NCBI GenBank assembly: GCA_963575745.1 | Contig: CAUYUJ010016710.1 | Coordinates: 1-64,000, forward strand | Source of the DNA: Prorocentrum cordatum | Taxonomy: Eukaryota; Sar; Dinophyceae; Prorocentrales; Prorocentraceae | DNA: 64,000 nt | Direction of reading: 5' to 3' | In this document: positions 24,055 through 56,832 of the stretch, one piece after another | How the letters are laid out: every line of letters starts with the position of its first letter | Numbering within the stretch: position 1 is the stretch's first letter | The notes under the pieces: generated by a model | What the model saw: only the letters and a program-made list of their open reading frames with translations | The model's database searches: none | Told to the model about the DNA's origin: nothing | Translations under genes and position numbers: made by a program

Positions 24055-25467
24055 GGTAACTTTTGGGAGGTTTTGCATTTATTTTTTTGAAAGATGTTTG
24101 ACAATTCATTTTGAGAAAGCAGGTTTTTACTTCGAGCATTGGTATCTCAACTTGATCCTGCGAGCAGCTCAGCTCTTCTGAGAGAGTTTTACTATCAAAA
24201 CACTTGGAGAAACCATCTTCATGTCGAGACGAAAAAAAAACATTTCTATCCTTTTTCAGAAATGCTTCCAGAACCTCTCTCTTTCGGCTCTGAGCAGTCT
24301 TACGCGGCTCTACGAGGTTCCTGGCGGTGACCAGGTTGACGGTTCACCGCCGGCGCCAGTTGGCAAGAAAAATCTCGACGGACCTTTTGGTGACTTTTGG
24401 TCGGTTGAAGATTGTGTTCTCGACATTTCAACATTCGTTTGAGCTCTAGTATCTTTTGCCGTGATATTCGATCTGATTCCCGCTCGCCATCTTGATCTCA
24501 GCTCGATCGGGTACCTCTTACTGCCAAAAAGCGTCCAGGCGGGATCGATCGTTTCGAGTCATCTTGATACGCGCTGTCGGTATATTGAACTTAACTCGAG
24601 ATATAGGACAGCTACAGAGCTGGTGAGCACACTTCATCGGTTCAGAATGGTCAGGCGCGTTCGGCTGTTGCAACCAGAGGTCTGAACTCGGTCTGCTAGC
24701 CGAGCTAGGTCCGCAAATCTATTCGTATTATTCGAGTCATCTTGACATGCGCTCTCGGTTTTCTGTACTTAACTCGAGCCATAGGACAGCTACAGAGCTG
24801 ATACTTACAGAAACCGATTTGGAATTTTCAGTCGCGTTCGTCTGTTGACTCCAGAGCTCTGAAGTCGGTCTGCTGCCCGATCCAGAATCGCGAAACTGTT
24901 TGTATTGTCATCTTGAGAGGTGCTGTCGGTTTTCTGCACTTAGCTCGGGCTATAGGGGAACTACAGGGCTGGTGATCACAGCAATCGATTGGGAGACATC
25001 AGGCGCGTCCGCCTGTGGAATGCAGAGCTCCGAACTCGGTCTGCTGCCCGAACTCGGTCCGCGAAATTGTTCGTATTGTTCGAGTCATCCTGAAAGATGC
25101 TGTCGCTTTTCTGTACTTAACTCGGGCTGTAGGGGGGGGGTGCAGGGCTGGCAATCGCAGGAATCGATTCGGAGACTTCAGACGCGTCCGCCTGTCGCAT
25201 TCAGAGGTCTGAACTCGGTCTGATACTCGAGCTTGGTTTGCTAAACTATTCGTTTTGTTCGAGTCATCTTGAGAGGTGCTGTCGATTGACGCGCGTAACT
25301 CGGGCTGTAGGAGAGCTATAGAGCTCGTACAGAAGACAATCCAGAAGCATCGGGGGGCGTTCGGCTGTTGCATCGAGAGGTCTGAAATCGCTTGGACTGA
25401 AAAACTATTCGTTCTCTGCAATTTTTGTCAACATTATGTATTGCCAGGAAGCTCTACGAGTCCCCCC

Positions 25468-25475
25468 GGCTCAAG
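25468..25475 (+). other. Relict dinoflagellate spliced leader at LINE1 5' end
   Basis: GGCTCAAG is the last 8 bases of the dinoflagellate spliced leader, whose known sequence ends TTTTGGCTCAAG. It stands exactly at the 5' junction of the retrotransposon, as expected if a trans-spliced transcript was reverse transcribed and lost the leader's first bases. LINE4 has the same relict. Eight bases alone would be weak; two copies at two 5' junctions make it convincing. Confidence 0.7.
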
Positions 25476-25949
25476 ACATCTCGGCTCCAGGGCTCCAGGA
25501 TCCCACTGGGGCTCAGGGGGTGTCGGCGTCGCGGGGAGACGGCGCGGCAGCCATCGCTGCCATCGACGGGTACGGCATCTTCGAGGTCAGCTAGGCTGCT
25601 TCCTTTGTTTGCTGCGCTTGTTATCTTTTGTTGTACGTGTGTGAAGACGGACGGATACGACTTTTCGGTTCTCGCGAGAAGGTTTCAGCTGGAGGATCTA
25701 TCACCGACAGTGCCATATTTGCAGTACTCACAGGATTACGGTCAGAAGCCAGATACTGCTGTCGAGAGAGCTTCTCGGAAAAGACAACTTCAGGATATTG
25801 AGAAGACCCCAGGTGACTACCCACTGGACGGAAGATCGAATACTGCCGACTCCACTCCAGATAGTGAATCTGTTGTACCTCTCTGTGAACGGACGGTGAC
25901 ACGACAGTGGTTGCACTCGTGGGGATACGGACCTCAGTGTATTGACACA

Positions 25950-27059
25950 ATGCCTGAGCATGCAGATAACATGACGGTGGATGGCGGAGCCCCCCCTGTG
26001 AAGCGTAATCGTGAGGAGGTTCTTGCTGAAAGGAAGGCCGCCTTGGAGGGGAAGGACGGTATGCAGAGTTTACTATTGCAGATGATGCACAAGATGGGTG
26101 ATAACACTGAAAGGATCCAAGATGCCATAGGAGTTCAGGGGACCAAAATCGACAACGTTCAGGCCCAGGTCCAGAAGCAGGGTGTTACGATTTCTAATCT
26201 GGAGACGAGCGTTCGGGGGCTTGAGACTAAACATAATCGACTCGAGACGATCGTCCAGGGACTCCAGGGACAGGTTCGTGCGGGTTCAGTTGCCAGTGGC
26301 GCTTCGACGAGGCCTGATAATACCAGGACGGGAAGATACCAGGCTCCTGGAACCACCTACTTCTCTCCAACGTATGTCGAACTCAAGGGATGGGTCACCA
26401 ACTGGAGTGACAGGGATAGGAGGTCTCAGGAGATGCTCATGTGGGAGGATGTGAAGGTGCTCATAGATAACATTACAAATCATTGTCTTTCGGAGGATGA
26501 TCGTGTGCACGTGTGTGTTGACGGTACTGAGCGCATTAACGCTGGCCGTTACATGTTCGGATCGGCCAAAATCAAATTCAAGCCAGGGACCGACAGGGAT
26601 ATTATTTGGAGGGTCAAACGGTGCATCGACCTTGTGACGGTACCCCCTGCTAAACGCCCCGCGCCTCCTCCAGGAATCCAGATCGCTGCACCACAGTGCC
26701 TCATTGAGAATATGAAGCAGGTTATCAACCCTGAGTCGATCAAAGTCAGTGTCGAGTGCCCAGAGTGGAAGAGGGACCACGTTAAGGCGGTGGGGAGATT
26801 CTGCGGCACTATTCGGAGCATGTGTACACAGATTGGTATCGAGGTTATTGCTGTGCGAGGGGAAATGGGACCGCCCAAATCGACTATATGGACAGTGCCC
26901 ACGACGGCCGCTCCGAGGCCAATGCTTCTGGCCGAGTTTACCACGACGCGGGCGACATGGGAGGTATCGAGTGAGACTGTCGACAGGTTGCATCAACTCA
27001 TACCTGCGTGTACTAAGACGAAGGCGGATATCGAGACGGAAGTCAACAGGAGGGTGTGA
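25950..27059 (+). CDS. LINE1 ORF1, coiled-coil nucleic-acid-binding-type protein
   Basis: This is the probable ORF1 protein of the LINE, expected to bind the element RNA in a ribonucleoprotein. From the chosen ATG it is 369 codons. Residues 1-30 hold a basic patch (VKRNREEVLAERK). Residues about 40-110 form heptad-rich sequence typical of a coiled coil (NVQAQVQKQGVTISNLETS, then LETKHNRLETIVQ). A globular C-terminal half follows, with a Pro-rich stretch (KRPAPPPG) near 230. I see no zinc knuckle. The frame is open upstream to 25425 without a better start inside the element, so translation could begin earlier. It ends in a TGA that is in frame with the endonuclease region directly downstream. 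The assignment rests on position and coiled coil, not on a recognised family signature. Confidence 0.65.
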   Translation: MPEHADNMTVDGGAPPVKRNREEVLAERKAALEGKDGMQSLLLQMMHKMGDNTERIQDAIGVQGTKIDNVQAQVQKQGVTISNLETSVRGLETKHNRLETIVQGLQGQVRAGSVASGASTRPDNTRTGRYQAPGTTYFSPTYVELKGWVTNWSDRDRRSQEMLMWEDVKVLIDNITNHCLSEDDRVHVCVDGTERINAGRYMFGSAKIKFKPGTDRDIIWRVKRCIDLVTVPPAKRPAPPPGIQIAAPQCLIENMKQVINPESIKVSVECPEWKRDHVKAVGRFCGTIRSMCTQIGIEVIAVRGEMGPPKSTIWTVPTTAAPRPMLLAEFTTTRATWEVSSETVDRLHQLIPACTKTKADIETEVNRRV

Positions 27060-30000
27060 CGACGACGACGCCGAACACCGTTCAAGGGGATCCGACTGGG
27101 TAGCTGGAACCTCAATCGGGCGGGGTCGGCCAAATTCAAGGGGAATGAGATTCTGAGGTGCCTTTCAATGCGAGATTGCATCTGTGGTGTTCAGGAATGC
27201 CAGAATCTTTTTGGAGGCAAATTCGATGCATATATCAGACGGTGTGGTCTTTCATATCGTGTGAGTTGTGACGGTAAGTGTGGGTTATTATTTAAGAAAG
27301 AGTGGAGTACGTGTGTGCGTGAATCAATATGTCAATATGAACGGTTCTGTGTGGTGGTCTTTAGTAGTGGAAGTGCCCCTGTGATAGTTGCCTCTGCGTA
27401 TCTTCCCGACCCCGGCGTCGAGAACGCCGTAGATGTGCAGTAGGTGGTGTTGGACGCACTCGAGTCAGTTATTGTCACTCTGCGCAGCCGCTGGAAGGGG
27501 GCGACTGTCTCTGTGCTGCTCGATGCCAACGTTGAGCTATCCCCATCAACTCAGCTGCAGTGCTCACGCACTGGGACTGTCTATGAGGCGGTGGGAAGTG
27601 CTACCAAGGAGGAGAGGAGGACTTGCGAGGAGGGAGGTGCACAGCGGGTGAGGAGGGACGTACGACAACAGTTGCGCGAGCGTGTTCTGTGCTTTCTAGG
27701 GCGCCTGGGGATGAAGGCTGCCAATTCGTTCTTGCCACGACGACTACACACATGGGAGAGCTACGGAGTATCTCGGTGGGGGACGTGTAAGAAGGTTCTT
27801 GATTACATTTTTGTTCCCAGGACGTGGGTGATCGATGAGATGACGGTCGAAACAATCATGAGTAATGGGGGGAAGACAAATCGTAGTCGTCTCAGCGACC
27901 ATGGCCTGCTTCAGGGGACTTTTAGTGACACAGGCGCTGAGCTGGTCAAACGTAGTATCCCGACGGCAGCTCGTGAAAAGAGTTTGGTGGGTTATAAGAC
28001 GGTGAATTGGGGGGGCCTCAATATGGCGCGAAAGGAAATCGATCGGGTCTTGGGAGATGCCAATACTACTTGTTCTCCAGGGGACCTTGTGTCGACCACT
28101 ATTCGGGCCTGTACTGAGCAGGAGGAAATCAAATTCACGACTGCCACCACGGGACGGGGACTACCGCCAATTAGGCCTGCAGGGCTCACGGCCTGCCAGG
28201 AGATTTTGCGACGGAAGCCTCTGCCAGCGTCAGTGGATGTGCCCAGCTTGCGCAGACGTGCCAACGGACTGCGGAGGGAGTATCGTGCGGCGTTGGCCGC
28301 GTGGACCTCTCCTGCCTCCAGGCGCAAAGAGCGTCATGGTATCAAGCACCTCATTGTGCAGGGACGGATATCTGAGGACAGGGAGGAGTGGGTGGAGGAG
28401 ATCAGAGCACATACCAGACAGAGGTATACTTCGGAGGAGGTCAGAGGACGGGATATGGCGATGTTGGAGGAGTTGAGGAGGGATGCACAACAGAACCTAT
28501 GTGACGGGTACTGCACTGAGGGACTGACAATGGCGGTGGTATGCCAGGTACGGTCACGTCTCAAGTCCAAGCGTGCCACTGGCCCCGACAGGCTGCCTTG
28601 TGAAATACTCAAGGCATTGCCGTGGGCGGCTTTGCGTGGCGTTGCTCGGATGTTTGATGAGATATTTCGCTTGGCACGGCAGTATCCGCAGGACTGGAGG
28701 CAAATTTTGATCGCCTTCATGCCCAAGCTGCCGAGCTTGACATCGCTGACAGATGCACGGTACCTCTGTCTGCAAAACAGTCTCAGCCGTTGGTATTCTG
28801 CTTGTGTGGTGATCTTGGTCGAACAATTTGTGTCTCGGGCTGGCCTCATGGGACCCCTGGGCATCTACGGCTTCCAGGAGGGACGAAAGACGGTGGAAAT
28901 TGTGGGGGCCCTCAAGGCTCTGGCTCAACATGGGGACATCTGGGGAAAGGATCAGACGGTCCATATCGCTAACGCCGATATCAAACAGGCGTTCGACCAC
29001 TGCAGCCTTCAAAAAAACGCCAAGCGAGCTATGTGCCATGCCAATATTCCTGCCTATCTCCAGTATGCTTTGCTATCACCGCTGGTTTGCACTACGGGGT
29101 CGTTAGTTGTCGAGGGTATGGCCATTCACGACATCAACTGGGACGTCTGCATACGGACGGGCGGCCCTGAGGGACCTCTTCTCTTTAATCTTATCATATG
29201 TGTCATGTGGGGACCTATATTTCGGGATTGGGACAGTAGAGGAGTGGGGTATGTGCTGGAGGGCGCCTGTGGTGAGTATGAGCGACGGACAATAGTGGTT
29301 GACTCAGATGATGCTCGATCTAACACTACCACTACATGACTGGGGGATGAGATGGAAGGATAGCAGCCTGTTGTACATGACATGTGGGGAAAATGCGAAA
29401 GTGGACGGTGACGGACATATACTTACCAGCGAGGATTTGTGTATACCTGCGTGCTCGAGATATCAGGGCTTTAGACTTCGACGTGTTTGCAGAATGAAAG
29501 TATTGGGTCATGAGATTTTCTCCACCTACTTAGTGCCCGCTCATCCTGATGTGGAATATCGCATCAAGGAGGCTCGTGCTTGTTTCATTGGACAGTCGAA
29601 TTTCTTTCGTAACAGAGCGGTAGCTGTTCGTGATAAGTTTTGTCGTTATAAAGACAAGGTGCAGAGTATGGCGTTGTATTGCCTAGAGACATGTACTGCT
29701 GATACTTCCTCGCTACACATGCTCAATGCCGTCGAGGGATGGTGTTTGTGCCGTATGTTTCGACGGCCGAGGAGAGATGAGGAGACTATGGCGGGCTGGA
29801 ACCGACGACGGTACCACGAGGCCAGAGAGCAATTTCGATCTTATGGATTTGCGAGTTTGGTGCAGCGATTTCTTCGTATGGTGTGGAACTCCGCTAAGGA
29901 TGCTGCTGATTTCATTTCTATGTTGTGTACTGCTTCTCATGAGGAAATATCTTCAACGCAACGTACGTGGAGAGATCACCACATGACTACGGTTGCGTAT

Positions 30001-30981
30001 GGCCCACTGTGGGACAGACTCAGGACGGATGCGTCTGAGTGCTTGCGGGGTATGTTTCACTTCCAAGAGGCTTCGCAGCTAAAAAGGAGACATGTTAGTT
30101 CAGGTCGAGCTGTCGGCCAGAGATGCTGGCTATTTTCTTTCTGCGAATTCTACGGACTCAAATGGTGGGAGTCCTTTGTGCCGACAGATGCTGCGTATGT
30201 TCAGTTCTGCGAACACATGTGTACACGGACGATGCTGAGTTATTTTCAGAAAAGAAAAGGGTACGGTACAACAGGTGGGGCCCCGCAGGAGGTACTTACC
30301 ATCACACAAAACGACCTACACACCTATGGGGCCCAAGAGGGCACTGCGGCGTTCAACGACAAACTGGCCAAACGTATTGCGTTACAAAATATGAAGGAGG
30401 TTGAGTACGACCTCGACTCATTTGGGATCCCTGTGTACATTTCTGGGGACAGTCTTCTGGTGGTGTCTTGGCTGCAGGGTGTCTGGAGGGTGCTTAATCG
30501 TACCTATCAGGATAGGATCAACAGAATGATTAACCAACTCGACAACATGTGTCAAAGGTATGGAATTAGGCCTGCCTGTCACGGGAGGGAAATTGTAGAC
30601 CACACATATAGGGAATGGAACACGCGTGCAGATGTACTCACTCATACGGCCCGTGTCGGGCCACCAGTGATTCGAGATACGATAGGGCTTCACGCCCCTC
30701 AGTTACAACAGGTGTTTCGCGTTTGTGCCATCAGAGCTGGATTCGATGGTGGTGTGTCTTGCGACGGCGTGGGAGTCGGGTGCTGGATAGATGTTGGACG
30801 GGTATCGAGGCTCTCAAGGCAGCCACTCAGCCATGAGATTATTTGGACGGAGGTGTACAGTGCGGCACTCTCGATTGATCCAACTTCAACAGTGACTGAT
30901 GCCGAGGTCTCGGCCGTTGAGCATACGATTATGATCTTGCCGCGGGTTGTACAAGCGTATTTCGGACAGGATATGATGTGA
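27060..30981 (+). pseudogene. LINE1 ORF2: endonuclease, reverse transcriptase, permuted RNase H-like region (broken)
   Basis: An APE-type endonuclease spans about 27090-27905: LGSWNLN at 27096, GVQE with the catalytic Glu, ASAYLPDPG, LLDANVE, DYIFVPR and LSDH at 27891. A helical linker follows, then reverse transcriptase: ATGPDRLP, motif A ANADIKQAFDH (Asp codon at 28977) and GGPEGPLLFN. A thumb-like region leads to a C-terminal RNase H-like region with GDS (Asp at 30448), RAD (30631), FDGG (30745) and TDAEVSAVE (30904). The order of these blocks is rotated relative to ordinary RNase H. Damage: an in-frame TAG at 27441-27443, and near 29300 a frameshift with loss of roughly 15 codons that should hold the YADD-type catalytic motif. 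No ATG lies between the ORF1 stop and the first endonuclease motif. Confidence 0.88.
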
Positions 30982-31245: not shown

Positions 31246-32180
31246 TCAGCGACGGCGCCCAGCCCTGTGCGGAGGTTGGAATACACAGAGGTTGGGGACA
31301 CACACCTCCGAGTGCATGCGCTATATTTTCTGATCGTGATCTCTCTATTGTTGCTCTTCGGGAATGCCAGCATTTGAATTATATTGAGGTTGAGGACGTG
31401 GGGTGGGGCTCTAGGTACGCGGAGTGCAGGCGGGCTGCAGTCTTGTACCGTGGTTCTTGGAAGCACCTCATCCTAGACAGCATCTCTGGTGATCGTTGGG
31501 TTGCAATTGTATTTCGTCATCTTATCTTCGTATTCGCTTACCTTTCGCATCGCGAGAGTGAGCTTGGTGATAATGGTGAGTGAGCCTCGGGGATCATCAG
31601 AAGGCCACTACGCTAGTTTCGCCAAGTACACCAGCGTGCTGTCAGTTCTGACATCCAAAGTTCTTGCTGCAAAAAAGGAGTATTTCATTCGTGATCTTGT
31701 GTTGCAGGTCGATGCTAACGTGGAAGTGTATCCCAATCAGTTTGTTGATAGGATACTCGTGACGGGGGAGGCGGTGGAGGGACCCAAGACCAAGTCTAGG
31801 AGGAAGGCCAAAGAGGGGGGTGCGGACATCATGCGTGACGAGATGCGTGAGATGTATTGTCAGGCCCTTTTGAAAACCATGGGTGCCCTGAAGCTCCGTC
31901 TTGCGAACACCTACGGCACGCGCGCGCCTACTTGGAAGCATTGCACACGTAAACATGAGCACGTATATGACTACTTCGCTATCCCGACGGATTCGCAGGT
32001 TCCAGAGGTATCCTGTTCATGGATCTTGCCATCTGATGTTGAGCATACACGTTCGCGTGAGATGACATTGGGTGACCATAAGTTGCTCCAGCTCCGACGT
32101 CCAGATCATCAGGCTAAATTGCGTCCTCGTACTCGTCCCTCACTTGCTCGGTGGAAGCTGCAGGCGGGCTGGGGGGTCCA
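31246..32180 (+). pseudogene. LINE5: endonuclease-domain fragment of a related LINE
   Basis: Two frames together cover an APE-type endonuclease homologous to that of LINE1. The first has ALRECQH, aligning with GVQECQN and its catalytic Glu. The second has QVDANVE, VYDYFAIP and LGDHKLL, aligning with LDANVE, LDYIFVP and LSDHGLL. The frames are shifted near 31560. The N-terminal strand with the WN motif, ORF1 and all reverse transcriptase are absent. It may be the 5' portion of LINE2, separated by later insertions, but a stretch of linker would still be missing. Confidence 0.75.
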
Positions 32181-35516: not shown

Positions 35517-38500
35517 TAGACAATCTTCTGGGTTCCCGAAGCTCTCAGAAGACCAGCTAAGGATTAAGGAGGAGCACTACAGGATTAGGCGGGAGTGCAA
35601 GAGGGAGGAGGTGGAGAAGGAGGTGCATAAAAACAGCCTGAAGCAGTGGAGGAGGGTTCGTCGAGATATCCAGCGTGCCCGGTTGTTATATCGACTATGG
35701 GAGGAGGTTCGACGTAAACCGAGAGCAACACAAATGATGATCCTGTATTGAGGAACTTCGTTATAAATGTGAAAGTATTGGGGTCTCTCGGAGTGCTGTT
35801 GGGCTTGTCCGATCGATATGGGTCTTCTTCTGCGCGCTCGTGCACGCTTGAGGGACGGAAAGGCCACAGGTTTGGATGGCATCTCAGCTTCTGTGCTCAA
35901 GACCTTACCGTGGGAAGCTCTTCGCCCCGTCCTTGTCTGCTTTCAGAAACTATATGAGAGGCAGATTGTTTCACCACATGCATGGAGGCGTATCCTTGTC
36001 AGTTTTAGGTTAAAAGGACCGAGAGCGCGTAGCTTCGACGAGACTCGTGCTCTCGCTATGCTGTCGGTATTCGGGAAATGGTTCAGTTCGTGTCTCACAA
36101 TTCTGCTTGCATCTCTCATCAAGACGGTTGCGCCGAGGGGTTGTCAACTGTATGGTTTTGTTGCGGGCCAAAAGTGTTATGAGGTTACCGCGCCTTCGAA
36201 GCGGCATGCACGGCATGCTGTTCTATGGAAGAAGGAGGACTGCCATATTGCCAATTGTGACATCAAGCAAGCATTTGATTATCTCACGGTACGGTCGGCT
36301 GTTGAGTCCCTGCTTGAATTGGAAGTGGATCCCTCTCTGGTATATGCTATCTTTGAGGGGTGCGCGCACAATGTTGCAGATCTCTCTTTGCAGCAGTGTA
36401 CCGTCGAGGGCATCAGTTGGGACACCTGTATTCGCACGGGCTCCATGGAGGCTCTTGCACTATGGTTGGCAAACTCATCGTGCATATTGGCGCCCATTGT
36501 TATACGGTGGCGTGATCGTGGCTATGGGGTGCAACTTTCTCCTGAGGCATCTGAGTTGCTGGTCATTCACTGGCTCTGGGCTGATAATGTTATCTTAGTT
36601 ACATCCCGTCGGTCAGATATGCTGGCCATGCTCACTGACCTGACCATGGCAATCCACCGACGCGGCTTTAGGTGGAAGGAGAGCTCCTTGGAATGCCTTG
36701 CTTGTGGTTGTGCTGGACCTCTCAGTGCACTTCAGATCTCTGTGTCTTTAGGCGATGATGGGAAGTCTTGCAATCCCATGGGTGAGGTCCTCAGGCCACA
36801 GGAACACACACACGCACACTTCTCTGAGCCTATTTCGTATACTATTCCGCAGGTTACCCAGACGATTTTTTGGGCACATTGTTGGATATTGACTTCTCAG
36901 ATCATGCCGATACACTTTGTCGACTGAAGAAAGCACGACAGCGTTTTTGGAATGATGCTGATTTCTCTACGAGCGCTGTCATCCCCATGGGCCGAAAGCT
37001 TGCACGGTACGACGCCCGAGTTCGCTCCTCCTTCTTCTACGGTATCGAGGGTACCACATGTGATGCGAACAGTCTGGCGGTGATTCACCAGCAGGAGGGG
37101 CAGTTTCTCTCTGCGATGTGTCGCCGACGTAAGAGGGTGAACGAGACGTGGGGTGATTATTGGAGTTCTCGGATCAGGCAAGCACGTATGTTGAGGCTCA
37201 ATTCTTCTCGTCCTTCACTTGTGCAGCTCACCTTGTATCGGCAGTGGTTGTTTGCGAAGCATGTGGTTTGCACGGCTTTCGGTAATCTTGTTCAGCCTGA
37301 TCGCGATGACCTCAGCCAAGGGATCTTATCTCGTGAACCTGAGTTGCCTCATGTACTGTGTGACTCGCCTGTCCCTCCTACCCCTGATCCTGGGCAAAAT
37401 CGTCGGAAGCTGATCTCAGATATGTCTCGTAACGTTCGCCAGCGTCGGGGGGATCTGTCCCAGACTTCGTCGCATCATGTCTCGGAGCCACCTCGTAAAC
37501 GAGCGCGCCAGAGTTTTACACATAAGTGGGCCACCCCATCCATGCAGAGCGCGCTGTGCATGTTGCATGCGTCTGGGGAGTACACCGCACATCGTGATGC
37601 CATGGTACGTGCTGCTGGTGTCGGCGGTCGTGCTCTTTCACGTCGGCGTCCGCATCGGGTTATGCAGAGTCTCCAGCCCTGGTTCACTGTGTTTGAGGTC
37701 TCTCAGGGGCCCCATTGGGATCAGAGCATGTGTTGGACGGAGTTAGGTTGGAAGACCTTCTTAGTGGACACGCTGCAGCAGCTGAATTCACGTAAGATAT
37801 TGGAATTCTGTTTGGTAAAAGATGCTATTTCAGGCACCCACTGGAAGGAGGAGGAGGAGAACAACACGGAGGCTCAACAACAACGTGAAAACGATCGTGT
37901 TGCCAAAAGGACTGCTGCTCTGTATCATGACGAGACTAACTGGAGGATCAACCCTGGATCGCTGGCCTTAGAAATGAGGGGGGATAGCCAGTGTGTAACA
38001 CGTTGGCTGACGGGAAGGAACAGATGCTTGAATGAAATGTACAGCCAAGCAATAGCTGCCATGCAAAATACTCTGTACTCCGTGTGTAAGCAGTTCCAGA
38101 TCTACAGTCCTGAGGCGGGCCGTGATACTTGGATATGGGTCTATCGGGAGGGGAACACAGAGGCGGACCACGAGACACACGTGGCCAGAGAAGGGCTGAC
38201 TACATCAGATGTGCGGTGGGATCTCGATACACTTTCTTTTATTCGTTCGGGTCAATATAGTGTACACGCGGTGAGAGGCTCTTTTGATGGTGGCAGATGT
38301 GAGTTAGGCACATCATGAGGTTGGGTGATTGACCTCTTTATCTCTGCTAATTTGCCTCCTGCTTCTCCCCCCCCTGGCCTTCCTCCCAAGCGTTGGCAGT
38401 TCGGAGTCGCCAAGCGTGCTTTTATGCTCCCCCCCCACTGTACTGTCACCCAGGCGGAGCTTGCTGCATCTGAGACTTTATTGTCGGGAGTTGTTGATTT

Positions 38501-38673
38501 GTGCACGCACATATGTAGATACCACACTTCTTTACAGCTTCGCTGCGTAATCCTGCCGCTTTGATCTTTCAGCTTCGCTGCCTCTGTACAGCTTCGCTTG
38601 TAGTATTCTCTGTGTCCTGGCCTGCTCTCAAGGGAGCTCGAATCGGCCAGCGCAGACATCGCAGACGTCGCAA
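35517..38673 (+). mobile_element. LINE2, 5'-truncated non-LTR retrotransposon
   Basis: The element starts in the linker between endonuclease and reverse transcriptase, runs through reverse transcriptase and RNase H-like regions, and ends with a 3' UTR. The 3' UTR holds two CAGCTTCGCTG hairpins plus a near copy, and a tail CGAATCGGCCAGCGCAGAC shared with LINE4. The 3' junction lies before ACCAGGTTGACGG of a host hairpin. Confidence 0.88.
35520..38564 (+). pseudogene. LINE2 ORF2 remnant: reverse transcriptase and permuted RNase H-like region
   Basis: A helical linker (35560-35745) is followed by reverse transcriptase in the frame open at 35818-36927: ATGLDGIS, motif A CDIKQAFDY, RTGSMEA where a PQG-type motif is expected, and the catalytic box LWADNVILV with WADN codons at 36577-36588. 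A frameshift near 36860 leads to the thumb region and C-terminus (36870-38318). The RNase H-like blocks are GDS (37983), EAD (38166) and FDGG (38286), then an in-frame TGA at 38316-38318, then TQAELAASE with its Glu at 38457. The second Asp of the canonical YADD is Asn here. Damage: the early stop, one frameshift, one TGA and no endonuclease. Confidence 0.87.
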
Positions 38674-41284: not shown

Positions 41285-42546
41285 TTCTTGGAAAGATTTT
41301 CGTTTCTCATGCTTGGCGTTTGGCCGGCTGTGGGATAGAACGAGAACAGATTCAAGCGAGGCTCTCAGATGTTGGGGGAAATGGAAGGAGGCCAGCTCAC
41401 TGAAACGACATTGTGGGGGACAGGAGAGTGTAGGACTTCGTTCATGGTGTTATTCTCTGGAATCGTTATATGGTTTATCCTGGTGGGAGTCCTTTGTGGG
41501 AAGTTTTGAACATTTCATGGATTTTGGTGCGCGTGTTTGTTCTATTTGTATGTTGAAGTATTTCCAGAAGAAATGCAAAGGCCTGGCGTCTTCGGGGGTG
41601 CCTGTGTTCTTGAATATGGATGAGGGCGGAGGGGTTCATATTGGTCAGGATCGGGAGGACACACCAGCATATAGGGAACGACTTAGCAAACGTATTGCGT
41701 TGCATAAAATGCGTTGTATACAATGGGACCTCGAAACGGGTGGGATACCATTGGACGTCCAGGGGGGCTCGCTGCTTGTGATCAACTGGCTCTGTGGGAA
41801 ATGGAAAGTATTAGCTCAGGTATCTCAGAGAAGGGTAGACCTCCTGATAAATAAGCTGGACGAGATGCAGGATATATACTCGGTGGGGCCTCCAGAGGCT
41901 GGCCGTGATTTTTTTTCTCATTCTGTCTTGGAATAGAACCAAAGGGCTGACTTGCTGACTCATCAGGCCCGCCAGGGCCATGTGTACGCCGATTTCTTTT
42001 ACCTCAGTGATTTCGAATCTCAGTGTTTTACTCCTTGCCTTATCAAAGCTGGCTTTGATGGGGGTGTATGCAGCCGCGGAAGCGCCTGTGGCGCGTGGAT
42101 GCAGATCGGTCTGCGTAACAAGTGCATCTTTTCGCGGACCGACATCACTTTCAAGGATGTATCTCGCAGCTTGGTGCTTACCACCAAGTGCCACGGTGAC
42201 AGATGCAGAGTTATCCGCGGCGGAGCGTATATGTGATGTGCTCCCACAGGTTGTGCAGAACTTCTTTGATCATTCGCAGTGATAAGTCGCACTTTGTTTC
42301 ATCTCACACAATTTCTTCTTGTATTTTCTTGCAGCTTCGCTGCGTTGTTTGATCTTTGTTTGTTATTCTGTTTGCTTTGCGATTGATTGTGTCATTGCAG
42401 GCTTTTGATTCTCTTTATTCCAACAGCTTCGCTGATGTGAAATATGAGCTGATTGCTTGCGTGACGAATAAGAGGCTCTGATTCGCCTGAGACTTCTTTG
42501 GACCTGGCCTCAGTGGCCAAGACGGTCCCAGCAAAGACGCACAAAA
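41285..42546 (+). mobile_element. LINE3, strongly 5'-truncated LINE
   Basis: It covers only the region after the reverse transcriptase fingers and palm, plus the 3' UTR. The flanking duplication ACCTGGT (41278-41284 and 42547-42553) marks target-primed insertion. The 3' UTR carries CAGCTTCGCTG at 42332 and 42424. Confidence 0.88.
41286..42282 (+). pseudogene. LINE3 ORF2 C-terminal remnant with permuted RNase H-like region
   Basis: It aligns with the last third of LINE1 ORF2: LWDRTRTDSSEAL, SWWESFVG, LKYFQKK and RIALHKM have counterparts there. The RNase H-like blocks are VQGGSLLVINWL (the catalytic Asp of GDS is Gly, codon 41766), RADLLTH, AGFDGGV and TVTDAELSAAE. Damage: TAG at 41934-41936 where LINE1 has Trp, and a frameshift before the last block. 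The order GGS-AD-FDGG-AE is the same rotated order as in LINE1 and LINE2. Confidence 0.85.
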
Positions 42547-43316: not shown

Positions 43317-44638
43317 AATTCCAGGGCGCTCGAGAGCTAGTTGGCAAGGAGAATCTCGACGGACCTTTTTCGTGATTTCTGCTCGATTGAAAACTATGTT
43401 CTCGAAATTTTATTATTCGTTAGATCTAGTATTTTTTCCCGTGATATTCGATCTTAACCCCGCTCGTCGTCTCAATCTCAGCTCGATCGGGTACCCATTA
43501 CTGCCAAAAAGCATCCAGGCGGGATCGGCTGTTTCGAGTCATCTTGACAGGCGTTGTCGGTTTTCTGTATTTAGCTCGAGCTCTAGGAGATTTGCAGAGT
43601 TAGTACGCACACGTAATCGATGCAGAATAATCAGGCGCGTTCGTCTGAAGCATCTAGAGGTCTGAACTCGGTCTGCTACTCTGAGGTTCTGGACTTATTA
43701 ACTCGAGCCTCAGATGAGCTAAAGGCCTCTTCGGCACAGCAATTGGAAGACAATGATCAGGCGCGTTAGTCTAAAATATCTAGACGCCAGAAACCGGTCT
43801 GCTATCAGCATTGGAGCCGAACAACTATTCGTACTCTCCATTTTTTTGTGAGATCGTGATGGTTATCTTGACTTAACTCGAGCTGCAGGTGAGCTACAGA
43901 GCTCTTTGGCTCAGCAATCGGAAGGGAATCATCAGGCGCGATGGTTCTAAGTATCTAGACGCCTGAAGTCAGTTTGCTATCAGCGCTGGGACTGAAACAC
44001 TATCCGTATTCTGTTTTTTTCTCGATCTGGTGATGATTTTCTTGACTTAACTCGAGCTGCAGATGAGCTACAGAGCTTGTTCAGCAGAAGAACCAGAAGG
44101 CAATCATCAGTCGCGCTACTAGACACCTGGACTCGGTCTACTCTTAGCGCAGACGCCGAAACATTATTTATACGGTGCTATTTTTTGGAGATGGACTTCG
44201 TTTTCTCGACTTACCTCGAGCTGCAGATAAGCTTCAGAGAGATCTTCGGCACATCAATCGGAAGCATTACATCAGACGCGCTATTTTAAAGTAGCTAGAC
44301 GCCTGGAAGCATGCTATTAGCGCTCGGGCTGGAAAAACTATTTGTACTCTGCGAATTTCTTGGAGATGGTATTGGTTTTCTTCACTTTACTCGCGCTGAT
44401 GATGAGCTACAGAGCTCTTTAGCACAGCAATCGGAAGGGAAGCATCAGGGGCGCTAGGTAAAAGTATCTAGACGCCTGAAATCAGTCTGCTATCAGCGCT
44501 CGGGCTGAGAAACTATTCGTACTCTGCTAATTCTTTGGACACGGTTTTGAGTATTAAACTCGAGCCGCAGATGAGCGAGGAAGCTCTACGAGTCTCCCGG
44601 CGGTAACCAAGGTTGACGGTTTATCGCCGGCGCCCAGT
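43317..44638 (+). mobile_element. Family B element with divergent satellite (B')
   Basis: The B-left block from AATTCC is followed by one or two classic monomers. From about 43740 a second monomer type recurs, marked by CAGCAATCGGAAG and CTAGACGCCTGAA. The right hairpin (GGTAACC/TTATCGCC) ends at 44638. The class switch inside one element suggests monomers are replaced or expanded within elements. Confidence 0.75.
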
Positions 44639-46970
44639 TGCTGGATGCTTAAGAGTAGTTCCGGCGCGCTGGAGGGCTAGTTGGCAAGGAAAATCTCGAC
44701 GGACCTTTTGACTCGTAGAGCTTTTCTAAGAGCGTCAGCGGCGAAGCTAGAAGAGTCATTCTGGCGCGCTTCGGGGCTAGTTGGCAAACAAATCTCGACG
44801 GATGTTTTGGACATGTTTAAACAGAATTTAGAGCTCTAGTATTTCTTCCACCCATCTCCGATCCTTTTCCCGCTCGCCGTCTCAATCTCAGTTCGATCGG
44901 GTACGTATTACTGCCAACAAGCATGTGGGCGGGATCGGCTGTTCGGGTCATCCTGACAGGTGCTGTCGGTTTTCTTGAGTTAACTCGAGCTCTAGGACAA
45001 CTACACTGCTGGTAGGGACACGTAATCGATCTAGAATCGTCGGGCGCGTTCGACTGAAGGTTCTAGACGTCCTGAATCGGTCTGCTACTCGAGCTAGGTC
45101 CGCAAAACTATTCGCACTCTTACTATCTTTGTTGGAGATGATGATGAGGAGTTTCTTGACTTAACTCGAGCTGCAGCTGAGCTACAGAGCTCTTAAGCAC
45201 AGCAATCGGAAGGAACTTATCGCGCACGATAGTCTGAAGTATCTAGACGCCTGATCTCGGTCTGCTATCAGCGCAGGAACCGAAACACTATTCGTACTCT
45301 GCTTTTTTGTTGGAAATGGTGATGGTTTTCTTGACTTACCTCGAGCTGCAAATGAGCTACAGAGCTGTTAGGCACAGCGATCGGAAATCATCCGGCACGC
45401 TTGCTGATAGTGTCTAGATGCTTGACCTCGGTCTGCTATCATGACGGGGGCCGAACCACTATTTGTATTATGTTTTTTTTTTTTTTTTTTTTTGGATTTG
45501 GCGATGCTTTCCTTGACTGAACTCGAGCTGCAGATGAGCTACAGAGCTGTTAGGCAGAGCAATCATAAGGAAATCATCAGGCGCGCTAGAGTTCAACGTA
45601 TCGAGAAGCCTGAACTCGATCTGCTATCAACGCTAGAGCCGAAACGCTATTCGTATGCTGCTAATTCTTGAGAGATGGTATTGGTTTCTTTCTCTTAGCT
45701 CGAGCTGCGGATGAGCTAAGCTGTTCAACCTAGCGATTTGGGAGGAAATACTCAGGCGCGCTATTTTAAAGTATTCAGACGCCTGAACTCGGTCTGCTAT
45801 CGTCCCTGGGACCAACAAACTATTCATACTCTGCTAATCCTCTGGAGATGGTGATGGTTTTCTTCACGCTGTTCGGCGCAATCGGAAGGACATCAACAGG
45901 CGCGCCAGCTCAAAGTGTCCAAACGCCTCAACTGGGTTTGGTTTCTGTATATATATATATCTATATATAGTTTTTTTGTTCCAGAGATGCTTCTTTCTCA
46001 CTGCCTCTTCTCCTTCGCGTCCTCTTCCATGAGACCGCGCTCGCGCGCGCAATGCGAGATTGCCGCGCCCGCATTGCGTGAGGAAGCTCTACGAGTTCCC
46101 GGCGGTAATCAAGGTTGACGGTTCAGCTCCCAGTGCTGACTTTTGCTTGGTTGAAACTTCTGTTCTCGAACTTCAACCATTCGTCAGAGCTTTAGTATTT
46201 TTCTTGTAAGATTCGATATTATTCCCGCTCGTCGTCTTAAGATCAGCTCGATCGGGTACTTATTACTGCCAAAAAGCATCCGGGCGGGATCGGTTGTTTC
46301 GAGTCATCTTGACAGGTGCTGTCGGTTTTCTGCAGTTAACTCGAGCTGTAGGATGGCTACAGAGCTGGTGCGCACACATAATCGATGCATAATCATCAGA
46401 CGCGTTCGTCTGAAGCATCTAGAGGTCCGAGCTCGGTCTGCTACTCGAGCTGGGTCCGCGAAACTTTTCGTACTCTTCCTTTTTTTTTCGGGGTGATCAT
46501 AAGTTTCTTCTTACCTCGAGCTGCAGATGAGCTTGAGAGCTCTTTGGCACAGCAATCGGAAGGAAATCATCAGGTTCGCTAGTCCGAAGTATCTAGACGC
46601 TCGAACTCGGTTTGTTATCAGCGCAGAAGCCGAACAACTATTCATACTCTGCTATATTTCTGGTGATCGAATCGGTTTTATTGACTTAACTCGAGCTGCA
46701 GATGATTTCCAGAGCTCTTAGGCGCAGCAATCGGAAGAAAATCTCCAGGCGCGCTATTTCAAAGAGTCTAGACGCCTGAACTCAGTCTGCTATCAGCTCT
46801 CGGGCTGAACAACTATTCGTACTCTGCTAATTTCTTGGAGATGGTATTGGTTTCCTTGGTTTAACTCGCGCTGCAGATAAGCTACAGAGCTGCTCTGCAC
46901 AGCAGTCGGAAGGGAATCATCAGAGGCGCTAGTTGAATGTATCTAGACGCCTGAAATCAGTCTGCGACTT
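44639..46970 (+). mobile_element. B' element split by a complete B'
   Basis: The host pieces are 44639-44709 and 46135-46970. The join CCTTTT^GCTGAC restores the normal B-left sequence, and the base before the insertion is T with no AGT. This case shows that the terminal AGT belongs to the element rather than being a target duplication. The right end of the host is not seen. Confidence 0.78.
44710..46134 (+). mobile_element. Complete B' element (1425 bp)
   Basis: The left terminus GACTCGTAGAGCTTTTC is at 44710, with seven or so monomers. A GC-rich inverted repeat (CGCAATGCG ... CGCATTGCG) lies at about 46050-46078, beside the right motif. The hairpin is truncated and ends at 46134. Confidence 0.8.
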
Positions 46971-47238
46971 TTCAGGCGTCAAGATACTTTTTTTCAGGCG
47001 TCAAGATACTTTTTCAGGCGTCAAGATACTTTTTCAGGCGTCAAGAACTTTTAACCAGCATCAAGATAAAACCAATCCGATCTCGAAAAAAAAAGCAGAG
47101 TATGAATAGTTATTCGGCTTCTGCGCTGATGGCAGACCGAATTCAGGCGTTTAGATTCTTCAGACTAGCGCGCCTGATGATGTTCTTCCGATTGCTGTGT
47201 CGAAGAGCTCTGTAGCTCATCTGCAGCTCGAGTTAGGT
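46971..47238 (-). repeat. Inverted B' satellite with a short local tandem repeat
   Basis: The first 75 bases hold four units of about 22 bases (TTTCAGGCGTCAAGATAC). Then comes one monomer in reverse orientation (GCAGACCGAATTCAGGCG, then GCAGCTCGAGTTAGG). The element starting at 47239 was inserted in its end. Confidence 0.65.
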
Positions 47239-47942
47239 AACTCGTAGAGCTTCCCTGAGTTAGTTGCTGGAAGCGTAAGAGTAATTCTGGCGCGCTGGAG
47301 GGCTAGTTGGCAAGACAAATCTCGACGGACCTTTTGATGATTTTTGCCCGGTTGAAAATTATTCTCTCGAAATTCAACAATTCGTTAGAGCTCTAGTACT
47401 TTTCCCGTGATATTCGATCTTATTCCCGCTCGCCGTCTCAATCTCAACTCGATCGGGTACCTATTACTGCCAAAGAGCATCCAGGCGGGATCGGCTGTTT
47501 CGAGTCATCTTGAGAGATGCTGTCGGTTTTCTGTACTTAACTCGAGCTGTAGGATAGCTACAGAGTTGGTACGCACACGCAATCGATTCAGAATCATCAG
47601 GCGCGTTCGTCTGAAGCATCTAGATGTCTGAACTCGGTCTGCTACTCTAGCTAGGTCCGCAAATCTATTCGTACCCTATTAGTTCTGTGGGAGATGATGA
47701 TGAATTTCTTGACTTAACTCGAGCCTCAGATAAGCTACAGGGCTGTTCGGCGCAGCAATCGGAAGGGAATCATCAGAGGCGCTAGTTGAATGTATCTAGA
47801 CGCCTGAAATCCATCTGCTATCAGCGCTCGGGCTGACAAACTGTTCTTACTCTGCTAATTCTTAGGAGATGGTATATGGGAAGGGAGCTCTACGAGTCTC
47901 CCGGCGGTAATCAAGGTTGACGGTTTAGCGCCGGCGCCCAGT
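47239..47942 (+). mobile_element. Complete short B' element (704 bp)
   Basis: The left end AACTCGTAGAGCTTCCC is at 47239, followed by the left block, two classic monomers and one B' monomer. The right hairpin has one change (TTTAGCGCC). It is the shortest complete B in the window because it has fewest monomers. Confidence 0.8.
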
Positions 47943-48774
47943 AATTCCGGCGCGCTGGAGGGCTAGTTGGCAATAATCATTTCGACGGGCCTTTTGATGA
48001 CTTTTGCTCGGTTGAAAATTATGTTCTTGAAATTCAACCACTCGTTAGAGCTCTAGTATTTTTTCCAGTGATATTCGATCTAATTCCCGCTCGGCGTCTC
48101 AATTTCAGCTCGATCGGGTACCTATTACTGCCAAGAAGCATCCGGGCGGGATCGGCTGTTTCGAGTCATCTTGACAGGTGCTGTCGGTTTTCTGTACTCA
48201 ACTCGAGCTGTAGGAGAGCCACAGCTGGTACGCACACCTAATCGATTCAGAATGATCAGGCGCGTTCGTCTGAAACATCTAGAGGTCTGAACTCGGCCTG
48301 CTATTCGAGCGAGATTCGCAAAACTAGTCGTACTCTACTTATTTTTCCGAGATGATGATAAGTTTCTTTACTTAACTCGAGCTGCAGATGAGCTAGAGAG
48401 CTCTTTGGCACAGCAATCGGAAGAACATCATCAGGCGCGCTAGTCTGAAGAATCTAAACGCCTGAATTCGGTCTGCCATCAGCGCAGAAGCCGAATAACT
48501 ATTCATACTCTGTTTTTTTTTCGAGATCGGATTGGTTTTATTGACTTAACTTGAGTTGCAGATGGTCTTCAGAGCTCTTGGGCATCCCAATCGGAAGGAA
48601 GTCATCAGGCGCGCTATTTCAAAATATCTAGACGCCTGAAATCAGTCTGCTATCAGCGCGGGGACTGAAAAGCTATTCGTATTCTGCTAATTCTTTGGAT
48701 ATGGTATATGGCAAGGAAGCTCTACGAGTCTCCCGGCGGTAACCAAGGTTGACGGTTTACCGCCGGCGCCCAGT
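47943..48774 (+). mobile_element. B' element, left terminus missing
   Basis: The B-left block from AATTCC, four or so monomers, and a perfect B-type hairpin ending at 48774. Confidence 0.75.
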
Positions 48775-51513
48775 AGCAGACTACGAATAAATTTTCAGCC
48801 CGAGCGCTGATAGCAGACTGATTTCAGGCGTCTAGATACTTTACAAAACTAGCGAGCCTGGTGATGTCCTTCCGATCGCTGTGTCGAAGAGCTCTGTAGC
48901 TCATCTGCAGCTCGAGTTAAGTAACTCGTAGAGCCTCCCATGAGCTAGTTGCTGGAAGCGTAAGAGTAATTCTGGCGTGCTGGAGGGCTAGCTGGCAAGA
49001 AAAATCTCGACTGACCTTTCGATGATTTTTGCTCGGTTGAAAATTATTTTCTCGAAATTCAGAAACTCGTTAGAGCTCTAGTAATTTTTCCCGTGATATT
49101 CGATCTTATTCCCGCTCGCCGTCTCAATATCAGCTCGATCGGGTACCTATTACTGCCAAAGAGCATCCAGGCAGGATCGGCTGTTTCGAGTCCTCTTGAG
49201 AGATGCTGTCGGTTTTCTGTACTTAACTCGAGCTGTAGGATAGCTACAGAGCTGGTGCGCACACGCAATCGATTCAGAATGATCAGGCGCGTTCGTCTGA
49301 AGCATCTAGAGGTCTGAACTCGGTCTGCTACTCTAGCTAGGTCCGCGAATCTATTCGTACTCTATTATTTCTGTGGGAGATGATGATGAGTTTCTTGACT
49401 TACCTCGAGCCTCAGATAAGCTACAGGGCTCTTCGGCACAGCAATCGAAAGGACATGATCAGGCGCGCTAGTCTAAAGTATCTAGACGCCCGAACTCGGT
49501 CTGCTATCAGCACTGGAGCCGGACAAACTAGTTGTACTCTCCAAATTGTCTGGAGATGGTGATGGTTTTCTTGACTTAACTCGATGTGCAGATGAGCTGC
49601 AGAGCTGTTCGGGGTAGCAATCGGAAGGGAATCATCAGACGCGCTAGTGCAAAGTATGTTGATGCCTGAAATCAGTCTGCTATCAGCGCTGGGGCTGCAC
49701 AGCTATCCGTACTGTGCTATTTTCCTAGACATGGTGATGATTTCGTTGACTTAACTCGAGCTGCAGATGATGTGCAGAGCTGTTTGGCACAGCAATCGGA
49801 AGACAATCATCAGGCGCGCTACTAGACACCTGGACTCGGTCTGCTATCAGCGCAGAAGCCGAAACATTAGTCATACTCTGCTATTATTTTGGAGATGGAA
49901 TTGGTTTTCTTGACTTAAGTCGAGCTGCAGATGAGCTCCATAGCTCTTAGGCACAGCAATCGGAAGTAATGCATCGGGCGCGCTATTTCAAAGTATCTAA
50001 ACGCCTGAAATCAGTCTGCTATCAGCGCTCGGGCTGAACAACTACTTGTGCTCTTCTAATTTCTTGGAGATGGTTTTGGTTTTCTCGACTTAACTCGCGC
50101 TGCAGATTAGCTACAGAGCTGTTCAGCACAGCAATCGGAAGGGAATCATCAGGGGCTCTAGTTCAAAGTATTTTGATGCCTGAAATCAGTCTGCTATCAG
50201 CGCTGGGGCTGCACAGCTATCCGTAATGTGCGATTTTTCTAGACATGGTGATGATTTGCATGATTTAACTCGAGCTGCAGATGATGTGCAGAGCTGTTTG
50301 GCACGGCAATCGGAAGACAATCATCAGGCGCGCTACTAGACACCTGGACTCGGTCTGCTATCAGCGCAGAAGCCGAAACATTAGTCATACTCTGCTATTA
50401 TTTTGGAGATGGAATTGATTTTCTTGACTTAAGTCGAGCTGCAGATGAGCTCCATAGCTCTTAGGCACAGCAATCGGAAGTAATGCATCGGGCGCGCTAA
50501 TTCAAAGTATCTAAACGCCTGAAATCAGTCTGCTATCAGCGCTCGGGCTGAACAACTATTTGTACTCTTCTAATTTCTTGGAAATGGTTTTGGTTTTCTC
50601 GACTTAACTCGCGCTGCAGATTAGCTACAGAGCTGTTCAGCACAGCAATCGGAAGGGAATCATCAGGGGAGCTCGTAAACAAAAAAACTAGACGCCTGAA
50701 ATCAGTCTGCTATCAGCGCTCGGGCTGACAAGCTGTTCGTGCTCTGCTAATTCTTTGGCGATGGTGTTGGTTTCCATGATTTAACTCGAGCTGCAGATGA
50801 GCAAGGAAGCTCTACGAGTCTCCCGGCGGTAACCAAGGTCGACTGTTTACCGCTGGCGCCCAGTCAAGAAAACTAATTCCATATCGAAAAAATACCAGAG
50901 TACGAATAGTTGTCCGGCTTCTGCGCTGATAACAGACCGAATTCATGCGTCTAGATACTTCAGACTATCGCGCCTGATGATTTCCTCCCGATTGCTGTGC
51001 CGAAGAGCTGTCTAGCTCATCTGCAGCTCCAGTTAAGTGAAGAAACTCATCATCATCTCGAACGAATCGGTGGAGTACAAATAGTTGTGCGCACCTAGCT
51101 CTGATGGCAGACCGATTTGAGACCTCCAGATACTGGAGACGAACGCGCCTGATGATTCTGGATCGATTAGGTGTGCCTACCAGCTCTGTAGCGGGTCTAC
51201 AGCTCGAGTTCAGTTCAGAAAGCCGACAGCACTTGTCAAAATGACTCGAACAGCCGATCCCGCCTGAGTGCTTTTTGGCAGTGATAGGTACCCGATCGAG
51301 CTGATATTAAGATGGCGAGCGGGAATAAGATCGAATATGGGTGGAAAAAATACGAGTGCTCAGACGAACTGTTGAATTTCGAGAAATCAAATTTATACCG
51401 GGCAATAGTACCTCAAACTTCGTTCGAGATTTTTGCTGCCAACTCGCCCCCCAGCGCGCCGGAATTACTCTTCTAGCTTCGCCGCTAACGCTCTCAGGGA
51501 AGCTCTACGAGTC
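48775..51513 (-). mobile_element. Minus-strand B' element split by a plus-strand B'
   Basis: The host pieces are 48775-48922 and 50865-51513, with its left end (minus strand) at 51513. The join GAGTTAAGT^CAAGAAAAC restores the monomer sequence seen uninterrupted near 52840, without duplicated bases. The right terminus of the host is not seen. Confidence 0.75.
48923..50864 (+). mobile_element. Complete long B' element (1942 bp) with higher-order satellite repeat
   Basis: The left terminus AACTCGTAGAGCCTCCC is at 48923. About ten monomers follow, spaced about 165, 173, 176 and 165 bases in the part measured. Segment 49645-50145 repeats as 50159-50659, an offset of 514 bases or three monomers. 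The hairpin has three changes and ends at 50864. Confidence 0.82.
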
Positions 51514-51568
51514 ATTTTGCATTTTTCATTTCGACATGAAGGTGGTTCCTTAGATTTTCTTAATCTTT
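51514..51568 (-). mobile_element. Minus-strand family A body piece
   Basis: On the minus strand it reads GGAACCACCTTCATGTCG, a standard A-body phrase. It separates two minus-strand B' elements. Confidence 0.6.
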
Positions 51569-53486
51569 ACTGGGAGCCGGCCGTAAGCCGTCAACCTTGG
51601 TGACCGCCGAGAACTCGTAGAGCTTCCCCGTGCAATTCGGGCGCGGCAATCTCGCATTGCGCGCGCGAGGGCACGGTCTCATGAAGGAGGACGTGGAGAA
51701 GAAGAAGGAGAAAGGGAAAAACATCTCTGGACAAATCATCTACATACCAGACCTAGTTCAGGCGTCTGGACACTGTAAACTAGCGCGCCAGTTGATTTCC
51801 TTCCGATAGAGAAATCATCACCATCTCTGAAAAATAGCAGAGTACGAATAGTTTTTCGGTCCCAGTGCTGATAGCAGACCGAGTTCAGGCGTCTAGATAC
51901 TCTACACTAGCGCGCCTGATTGTTTTGATTCGATTGCTGTGCCGAAGAGCTCTGTAGCTCATTTGCAGCTCATGAAAACCAAAACCATCTCCAAAGAATT
52001 AGCAAAGTACGAGTAGTTTTTCGGCCCCAGTGCTGATAGCAGACCGAGATCAGGCGTCTATATACTTTGAACTAGCGCGTCTGCTGATTCCCTTCCGATT
52101 GCTGTGCTGAAGAGCTCTGTAGCTCATCTGCAGCGCGAGTTAAGTCAAGAGAGTCAGCACCATCTCCAAGAAATTAGCAGAGGACTGGAGAAGAAGAGGG
52201 AGTGAGGGAAAAGCATCTCTGGAACCAAACAATTGACATGACAGACCCAGTTCAGGCGTCTGGACATTGTAAACTAGCGCGCCAGTTGATTTCCTTTCGA
52301 TGGCTGCGCCGAAGAGCGTAAAGAAAACCATCACCATCTCTAAAACATTAGCAGAGTACGAATAGTTTTACGGTCCCAGCGCTGATAGCAGACCGAGTTC
52401 AGGCGTCTAGATACTTTACACTAGCGTGCCTGATTATTTCCGTTCGATTGTTGTGCCGAACAGCTCTGTAGCTCATTTGCAGCTCGAGTTAAATCATGCA
52501 AACCAATACCATCTCACAATAATTAGCAGAGTACGAATAGTTTTTCGGCCCCAGCGCCGATAGCAGACCGAGATCAGGCGTCTAGATACTTTCAACTAGG
52601 GCCCCTGATGATTCCCTTCCGATGGCTGTGCTGAACAGCTCTGTAGCTCACCTGCAGCGCGTGTTAAGTCAAGGAGATCAATACCATTTCCAAGAAATTA
52701 GCAGAGCACGAATAGTTTTTTCAGCCCGAGCGCTGAGAGCAGACTGATTTCAGGCGTATATATACTTTGAACTAGCGCGTCTGATGATTTTTCCGATTGC
52801 TGTGCCGAAGAGCTCTGTAGCTCATCTGCAGCTCGAGTTAAGTCAAGAAAACCAACTCCATCTCCAGAAAATCGCAGAGTACAACTAGTTTTTCGGCTTC
52901 TGCGCTGATAACAGACCGAGTTCAGGCGTCTAGATACTTTAGACTAGCGCGTCTGATGATTGTCTTGCGATTGATGTGCCAAAGAGCTCTCTAGCTCATC
53001 TGCAGCGCGAGTTAAGTCGAGAAGCCGATCATCTCAAAAAATGATGGAGTACAGATAACTGCTCGGACCTAGCTCTGGTAGCAGACCGAGTTCAGACCTC
53101 TAGATGCTAGAGACGAACGCGCCTGATGATCCTGGATCGATTAGGTGTGCCTACCAGCTCTGTAGCGCTCCTACAGCTCGAGTTAAGTACAGGAAACCGG
53201 CAGCATCTTTCAAGATGGCCCGAACAGCCGATCCCGCCTGGATGTTTTTTGGCAGTAATAGGTACCCGACCAGGCTGAGATTGAGATGGCGAGCGGGAAT
53301 AATATCGCAGATGGGTTGAACAATTTCTAGAGCTCTAAGGACCTGCTGACTTTCGAGAAATCGAATTTAAACCGAGCAACAGTACCCAACGCATCCGTCG
53401 ATATGTTTTTGCCAACTAGCCCCCCAGCGCGCCGGAATTACTCTTCTAGCTTCGCCGCTAACGCTCTTAGGGAAGCTCTACGAGTC
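51569..53486 (-). mobile_element. Minus-strand B' element (about 1.9 kb)
   Basis: The hairpin is at 51569-51625 and the left terminus (minus strand) at 53486. The GC-rich inverted repeat with CGCATTGCG and CGCGCGAGG lies beside the right end. Segment 52182-52707 is nearly identical to 53643-54168 of the next element. Confidence 0.8.
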
Positions 53487-56775: not shown

Positions 56776-56801
56776 GGAGGAGGAGGAGGAGGAGGAGGAG
56801 A

Positions 56802-56832
<31 letters not shown>

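Follow-up and report, generated by a model that had tools for sequence, protein, structure and literature searches.

Ribonuclease H (RNase H) is among the most widespread protein folds, and the order of elements along its chain counts as one of its defining features. Archaeal-type RNase HI (Pfam RVT_3, PF13456), represented by the enzymes of Sulfolobus tokodaii (2ehg, 3aly), LC11 (3u3g, 4h8k), and Halobacterium (4e19), carries GDS, RExNxxAD, and FDG motifs, an AE-type helix aA, and a D-E-D-R-D catalytic set. Here we describe a long interspersed nuclear element (LINE) in Prorocentrum cordatum, present as three copies (LINE1 to LINE3) in a 64,000-nucleotide stretch of DNA (contig CAUYUJ010016710.1 of GCA_963575745.1, positions 1 to 64,000; here called the window). 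The C terminus of its second open reading frame (ORF2) shares all of these features, as well as the order of secondary-structure elements within each half of the domain, but the halves stand in swapped order, and the chain runs from strand b4 to helix aA. We conclude, with a probability of roughly 80%, that this domain is a natural circular permutation of archaeal-type RNase HI.

Archaeal-type RNase H in retroelements is already known. Plants and oomycetes have aRNH retrotransposons (Ta11 L1, oomycete L1, Utopia, Tat, Archon, and Chronos) that likewise encode a polyprotein with such a domain. In the accessible part of the article on them, the Repbase matches come solely from higher plants and oomycetes, and its text does not contain the string "permut" (PMC5348765). 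SymbioLINE-Dnmt and other Symbiodinium retrotransposons are also dinoflagellate LINEs with unusual domains. In SymbioLINE-Dnmt the domain is a methyltransferase, and the main text mentions "RNase H" once, in a general remark on domains acquired by retrotransposons (PMC5890265). Literature searches, in which most subscription papers were not covered, brought up neither a circularly permuted RNase H of natural origin nor such a domain in a LINE. No word starting with "permut" occurs in a survey of the RNase H superfamily (PMC3985635), and no permuted RNase H is described in the accessible parts of PMC5408684, PMC4686048, PMC8775202, PMC3710099, PMC2628886, PMC7824862, PMC3150331, and PMC3578095.

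Motif order in the window and in related proteins

The canonical order b1-b2-b3-aA-b4-b5-aE was not found in the LINE domain, which is instead arranged b4-b5-aE-b1-b2-b3-aA; it is therefore classed as a circularly permuted RNase H and not as an ordinary member of RNase HI. The domain and its elements lie as follows.

30427 to 30450, plus strand: LINE1 strand b4 with the catalytic Asp of GDS (codon 30448 to 30450), the permuted domain's initial core strand (translation and AlphaFold2)
30610 to 30657, plus strand: LINE1 REWNTRAD (Arg codon 30610 to 30612, Asp codon 30631 to 30633) and helix aE (30622 to 30657) (translation, alignment, and AlphaFold2)
30658 to 30714, plus strand: LINE1 linker from aE to b1, 19 codons, with one short strand and one short helix predicted (AlphaFold2)
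30715 to 30759, plus strand: LINE1 strand b1 with FDGG (Asp codon 30745 to 30747) (translation and AlphaFold2)
30766 to 30876, plus strand: LINE1 strands b2 (30766 to 30807) and b3 (30841 to 30876) (AlphaFold2)
30892 to 30981, plus strand: LINE1 helix aA with TDAE (Glu codon 30904 to 30906) and the ORF2 stop codon (translation and AlphaFold2)
37980 to 38513, plus strand: LINE2 copy of the permuted domain with one in-frame stop; P0005 is an uninterrupted relative (translation, protein and tblastn searches)
41763 to 42258, plus strand: permuted domain of LINE3 in decayed form, with GGS, an in-frame stop, and a frameshift (translation and tblastn)

In the standard-code translation of LINE1, GDS starts at 30445, NTRAD at 30619, FDGG at 30742, and TDAEVSAVE at 30895, with catalytic codons at 30448, 30631, 30745, and 30904. 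The original prediction, made from the DNA sequence by itself, had given this order with the positions of the catalytic codons, and translation bears it out. The rotated order that it reported for the other two copies was also recovered, for LINE3 within about five bases. LINE2 carries GDS at 37980 (Asp 37983), NTEAD at 38154 (Asp 38166), FDGG at 38283 (Asp 38286), and TQAELAASE at 38448 (Glu 38457), its stop falling after FDGGRCELGTS. LINE3 has GGS in place of GDS at 41763, NQRAD at 41937 immediately past its in-frame stop, FDGG at 42054, and TDAELSAAE at 42199 in a different frame. None of the three copies in the window is intact; in LINE1 the reverse transcriptase (RT) is frameshifted near 29,250 to 29,300.

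Protein searches returned 12 related proteins. Nine contain the domain, the other three (P0008, P0011, and P0012) not extending to it. The order GDS, RExNxxAD, FDGG is present in all nine (with GYS for GDS in P0007), and the aA motif follows FDGG in eight; P0004, which lacks it, looks by eye to be frameshifted past FDGG. P0009 (1,286 amino acids) and P0010 (1,306 amino acids) are single open ORF2 frames that keep every catalytic residue and have the domain at their extreme C-terminal end. P0002, P0003, and P0007 are labelled Prorocentrum cordatum (a dinoflagellate, Dinophyceae), and P0002 is 83% identical to LINE3 over 290 aligned residues, the upstream linker included. Because the order is shared by all nine proteins and two of the ORF2s are uninterrupted, neither decay nor misassembly explains it. 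An assembly or decay artifact can be set aside, since uninterrupted ORF2s on other contigs show the identical motif order; the original prediction had already judged a cloning or assembly artifact unlikely from the divergence of the window copies.

P0008 and P0011, pieces of RT and linker close to LINE1 (27444 to 30100), are labelled Pyramimonas sp. in EukProt. Pyramimonas is a green alga; either the material was contaminated or the element has a broader range of hosts.

The nine proteins and the three window copies make up the 12 copies of the domain considered here. Tests in which the halves were rewritten in native order used six sequences: LINE1, P0001, P0002, P0005, P0009, and P0010. P0003 and P0004 (near P0002), P0006 (95% identical to a window copy), P0007 (near P0001), and the broken LINE2 and LINE3 were left out of that set. 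The alignment behind the structure model holds nine of the 12 copies (all but P0004, LINE2, and LINE3), and a further alignment holds seven.

Comparison of the domain with RNase HI

Profile comparison assigns the GDS-to-NxxAD half clearly to archaeal-type RNase HI. We built an RNase HI profile from 22 fetched sequences, mostly haloarchaeal with one actinobacterial and one from Synergistales, taking 22 of 23 loci (L021 was omitted because its match length was no multiple of three). Against this profile the GDS half scored 50.4 in hhalign, while the best of 200 column shuffles reached 18.6 (0 of 200 as high). The FDGG half by itself is not significant in this comparison, though its hhalign alignment sets TVTDAEVSAVE in register against the helix of RNase H that bears the Glu.

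Rewriting the halves in native order improved the matches to RNase H. Pfam RVT_3 was matched by five of the six sequences with the halves swapped, compared to two in natural order, and the best E value in a profile search of the PDB went from 0.027 to 0.0028. The rewritten PDB list is headed by six sequences that are RNase H or related to it; the same six appear in the natural-order list with one integron-cassette row interposed. The NCBIfam family RNaseHI_Thmprot was matched by all six rewritten sequences (best E value, 9.9e-5) versus five in natural order (4.5e-4), and PRK07708 by five (2e-7) versus four (1.4e-5). For LINE1, the RNaseHI_Thmprot score rose from 14.5 to 19.3 bits, and its rewritten NCBIfam alignment runs from aA through aE (52 to 154 against 43 to 132 of 143). 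The gain from rewriting is mostly owed to aA. With swapped halves, hhalign covered RNase H columns 1 to 125, of which 119 were aligned, versus columns 57 to 125 in natural order. Among PHROGs, the rewritten sequences matched phrog_531 ("Rnase H") in two of six cases (best E value, 0.45), among other weak families. In viral contigs, nine pattern matches were obtained and none was confirmed.

A normal-order b1/aA block upstream of GDS, which the original prediction had named as a finding that would speak against permutation, was sought by comparing 82 overlapping windows of the 1,286-residue ORF2 profile with the N-terminal half of RNase H. The top three (1201 to 1286, 14.2; 1186 to 1275, 14.0; 1216 to 1286, 13.8) all lie past GDS at 1112. 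Ranks four and six (1171 to 1260 and 1156 to 1245) do so as well, the FDGG region falling on profile columns 2 to 21 (strand b1). The best window upstream of GDS ranked fifth (616 to 705; 12.5 over 13 columns). No such block was thus found in these windows, by a small margin and with all scores low, so that a very divergent one is not strictly excluded by these profile comparisons. Even against its own proposed counterpart, the profile of the N-terminal half performs weakly.

Predicted structure and proposed topology

The AlphaFold2 model has the element order b4, helices, b5, aE, b1, b2, b3, aA, with the catalytic residues on the expected elements. Its predicted template modeling (pTM) score is 0.70, and the predicted local distance difference test (pLDDT) value, averaged over ten-residue blocks from residue 91, lies at 83 to 96 in 16 of 19 blocks (77, 75, and 72 in the rest). 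With regard to packing, which had been proposed as a check, both halves are predicted with high confidence in permuted order; that they pack against each other, with the acidic residues converging, is inferred. Profile searches and the modeled element order together support a true circular permutation of the RNase H fold.

In the proposed topology, the chain would open at b4, bearing the Asp of GDS, and pass through helices and b5 to aE, REWNxRAD contributing its Arg and Asp. After some 20 linker residues would come b1, with the Asp of FDGG, then b2 and b3, and finally aA, with the Glu of TDAE. The old ends would be joined, and the old aA-b4 loop would contain the new ones. Permutations usually arise by tandem duplication and subsequent loss of the outer halves, and this domain may likewise descend from a duplicated RNase H. 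No tandem-duplication intermediate was found in the present searches. In the approximately 900 bases past the stop of each copy, no second RNase H half was detected by the C-half model (at most 0.3 bits); the N-half model never exceeded 0.1 bits, not even on the domains themselves, and was powerless in this downstream search.

A helix is predicted before GDS at 30346 to 30396 (model residues 69 to 85; NDKLAKRIA in LINE1), and in the copies read by eye an Asp or Glu stands two residues ahead of the LAKR-like motif. This helix is possibly a relic of the first helix aA of a duplicated RNase H; the profile matches in the sliding-window scan of ORF2 stop short of it.

Catalytic residues and function

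The RNase H catalytic set is D-E-D-R/H-D, and the R/H residue distinguishes archaeal-type from fungal-metazoan RNase H, according to the accessible part of PMC5348765. The LINE domain has the complete set: D103, R157, D164, D202, and E255 (residues of the translation of 30142 to 30978). The R/H place is Arg in the fetched archaeal-type sequences, as in VPREINDRAD, and is taken here by R157 of REWNxRAD. R157, D164, D202, and E255 are invariant in the nine aligned rows, and D103 is replaced by Tyr in P0007. The alignment has 25 invariant columns, catalytic residues among them, in rows down to 27 to 34% identity to the window copy. Conservation of the set at this divergence argues for selection on activity, and judged from sequence the domain is probably active as an RNase H.

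In RNase H-bearing LINEs, the RNA strand of the hybrid is removed during target-primed reverse transcription. On this precedent, the domain would most likely remove template RNA from the RNA/cDNA hybrid in target-primed reverse transcription. We consider it likely that this is a catalytically working, naturally evolved permuted RNase HI, fixed in a LINE clade with dinoflagellate relatives.

Alternative explanations

Several results weigh against a permuted RNase HI. Its FDGG half is hard to recognize alone: it scored 13.2 against the RNase HI profile, a value matched by 18 of 200 shuffles; it matched a Pfam family in none of seven members; its sole match in the PDB was a designed protein (E value, 1.8); and a hidden Markov model of the RNase H N-terminal half gave nothing above 0.1 bits on the three domains of the window. 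Rewriting left scores below curated cutoffs, narrowly for RVT_3 (best, 21.4 bits rewritten and 20.8 natural; cutoff, 21.6) and by far for NCBIfam (LINE1, 24.5 of 175 and 19.3 of 140 bits). When 32 rotations were compared, the score of the full swap (about 49) fell below those of cuts just before or inside aA (53.5 and 53.7) and of a cut six columns in (51.6), so that coverage alone, and not total score, singles it out. When the FDGG half was shuffled 300 times, the rewritten score was reached by 9 shuffles for LINE1, 2 for P0001, 19 for P0002, 4 for P0005, 1 for P0009, and 81 for P0010, which therefore lends no support here; as the six sequences are related, these tests are not independent. 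A longer native-order profile placed RNase HI third in the PDB (E value, 0.25), behind a galactosidase at 0.12. The structural evidence is a single AlphaFold2 model built from nine sequences, in which b5 is short (152 to 154) and lies in the block with a pLDDT of 77, and in which the convergence of the acids is presumed.

Structure searches that are bound to chain order also led elsewhere: PelC chains in Foldseek against the PDB (E value, 4.8e-4; template modeling scores, 0.2 to 0.3) and CinA in VIA-align. In a viral structure library, the top row was a Pithovirus RNase H (E value, 1.8e-3; probability, 0.89; template modeling scores, about 0.2); this search was order-bound too, and the match is not decisive. 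That the domain is a different alpha/beta domain, with a CinA-like or anticodon-binding-like fold, and owes its likeness to RNase H to convergent short motifs is very unlikely in our judgment. A domain swap, in which the GDS and FDGG halves pair with those of a second ORF2 to form an intertwined dimer instead of a permuted monomer, would suit the short linker and would be invisible to a one-chain prediction; we regard it as unlikely. A single chain is predicted with high confidence across both halves, which speaks against a swap indirectly. About as unlikely is that duplication left two truncated RNase H copies that are no longer one working domain. The poor recognition of the FDGG half and the loss of a catalytic residue in some copies (GYS in P0007, GGS in LINE3) would agree with such remnants, but the catalytic residues are among the invariant columns even in the most divergent rows, and none is missing from the uninterrupted ORF2s. 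Of all these readings, a circularly permuted RNase HI is clearly preferred.

The LINE and its surroundings

Two further features were mapped at LINE1.

25401 to 27059, plus strand: long open reading frame upstream of LINE1 ORF2, possible ORF1, 552 amino acids (open frame; no Pfam family above cutoff)
27189 to 30951, plus strand: LINE1 ORF2, with endonuclease-like part, RT, linker, and RNase H-like domain; RT frameshift (tblastn with P0009 residues 1 to 705 and 710 to 1280)

The RT of LINE1 matches RVT_1 at 20.9 bits, below the cutoff of 29.6, which is exceeded in the uninterrupted relatives P0009 (33.2 bits) and P0010 (34.3 bits). The N terminus of P0009 has no Pfam match at E values up to 5; DANVEL, DYVMVP, and SRLADH-like motifs seen there by eye may be signs of an apurinic-type endonuclease domain. 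Directly 3' of LINE1, an endonuclease-like fragment of a further, divergent LINE lies at 31356 to 32163 (tblastn with P0009 residues 1 to 77 and 83 to 269).

Tandem repeat arrays with a period of about 160 to 180 bases, at 1528 to 25329 and 43698 to 55988, flank the LINE-bearing stretch; the LINEs apparently lie between blocks of satellite DNA. From 56001 to 64000, G+C is higher (0.58 to 0.61, up from 0.48 to 0.53), and the sequence has long frames that overlap as well as simple repeats (GAG, CTC, GT). A minus-strand frame there (58669 to 59352) matches a CENP-B dimerization domain at 26.8 bits (cutoff, 25.4), perhaps through an acidic run.

Significance

Searches bound to chain order miss a permuted RNase H or detect half of it: in a Pfam scan of four relatives in natural order, RVT_3 appeared weakly in two, over the b4-aE half alone. 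If the domain works, a natural RNase H fold can have its ends moved to aA-b4, and this would point to RNase H domains that have gone unnoticed in other retroelements. Its divergent families would then offer a natural series in which to study how permutations arise and persist.
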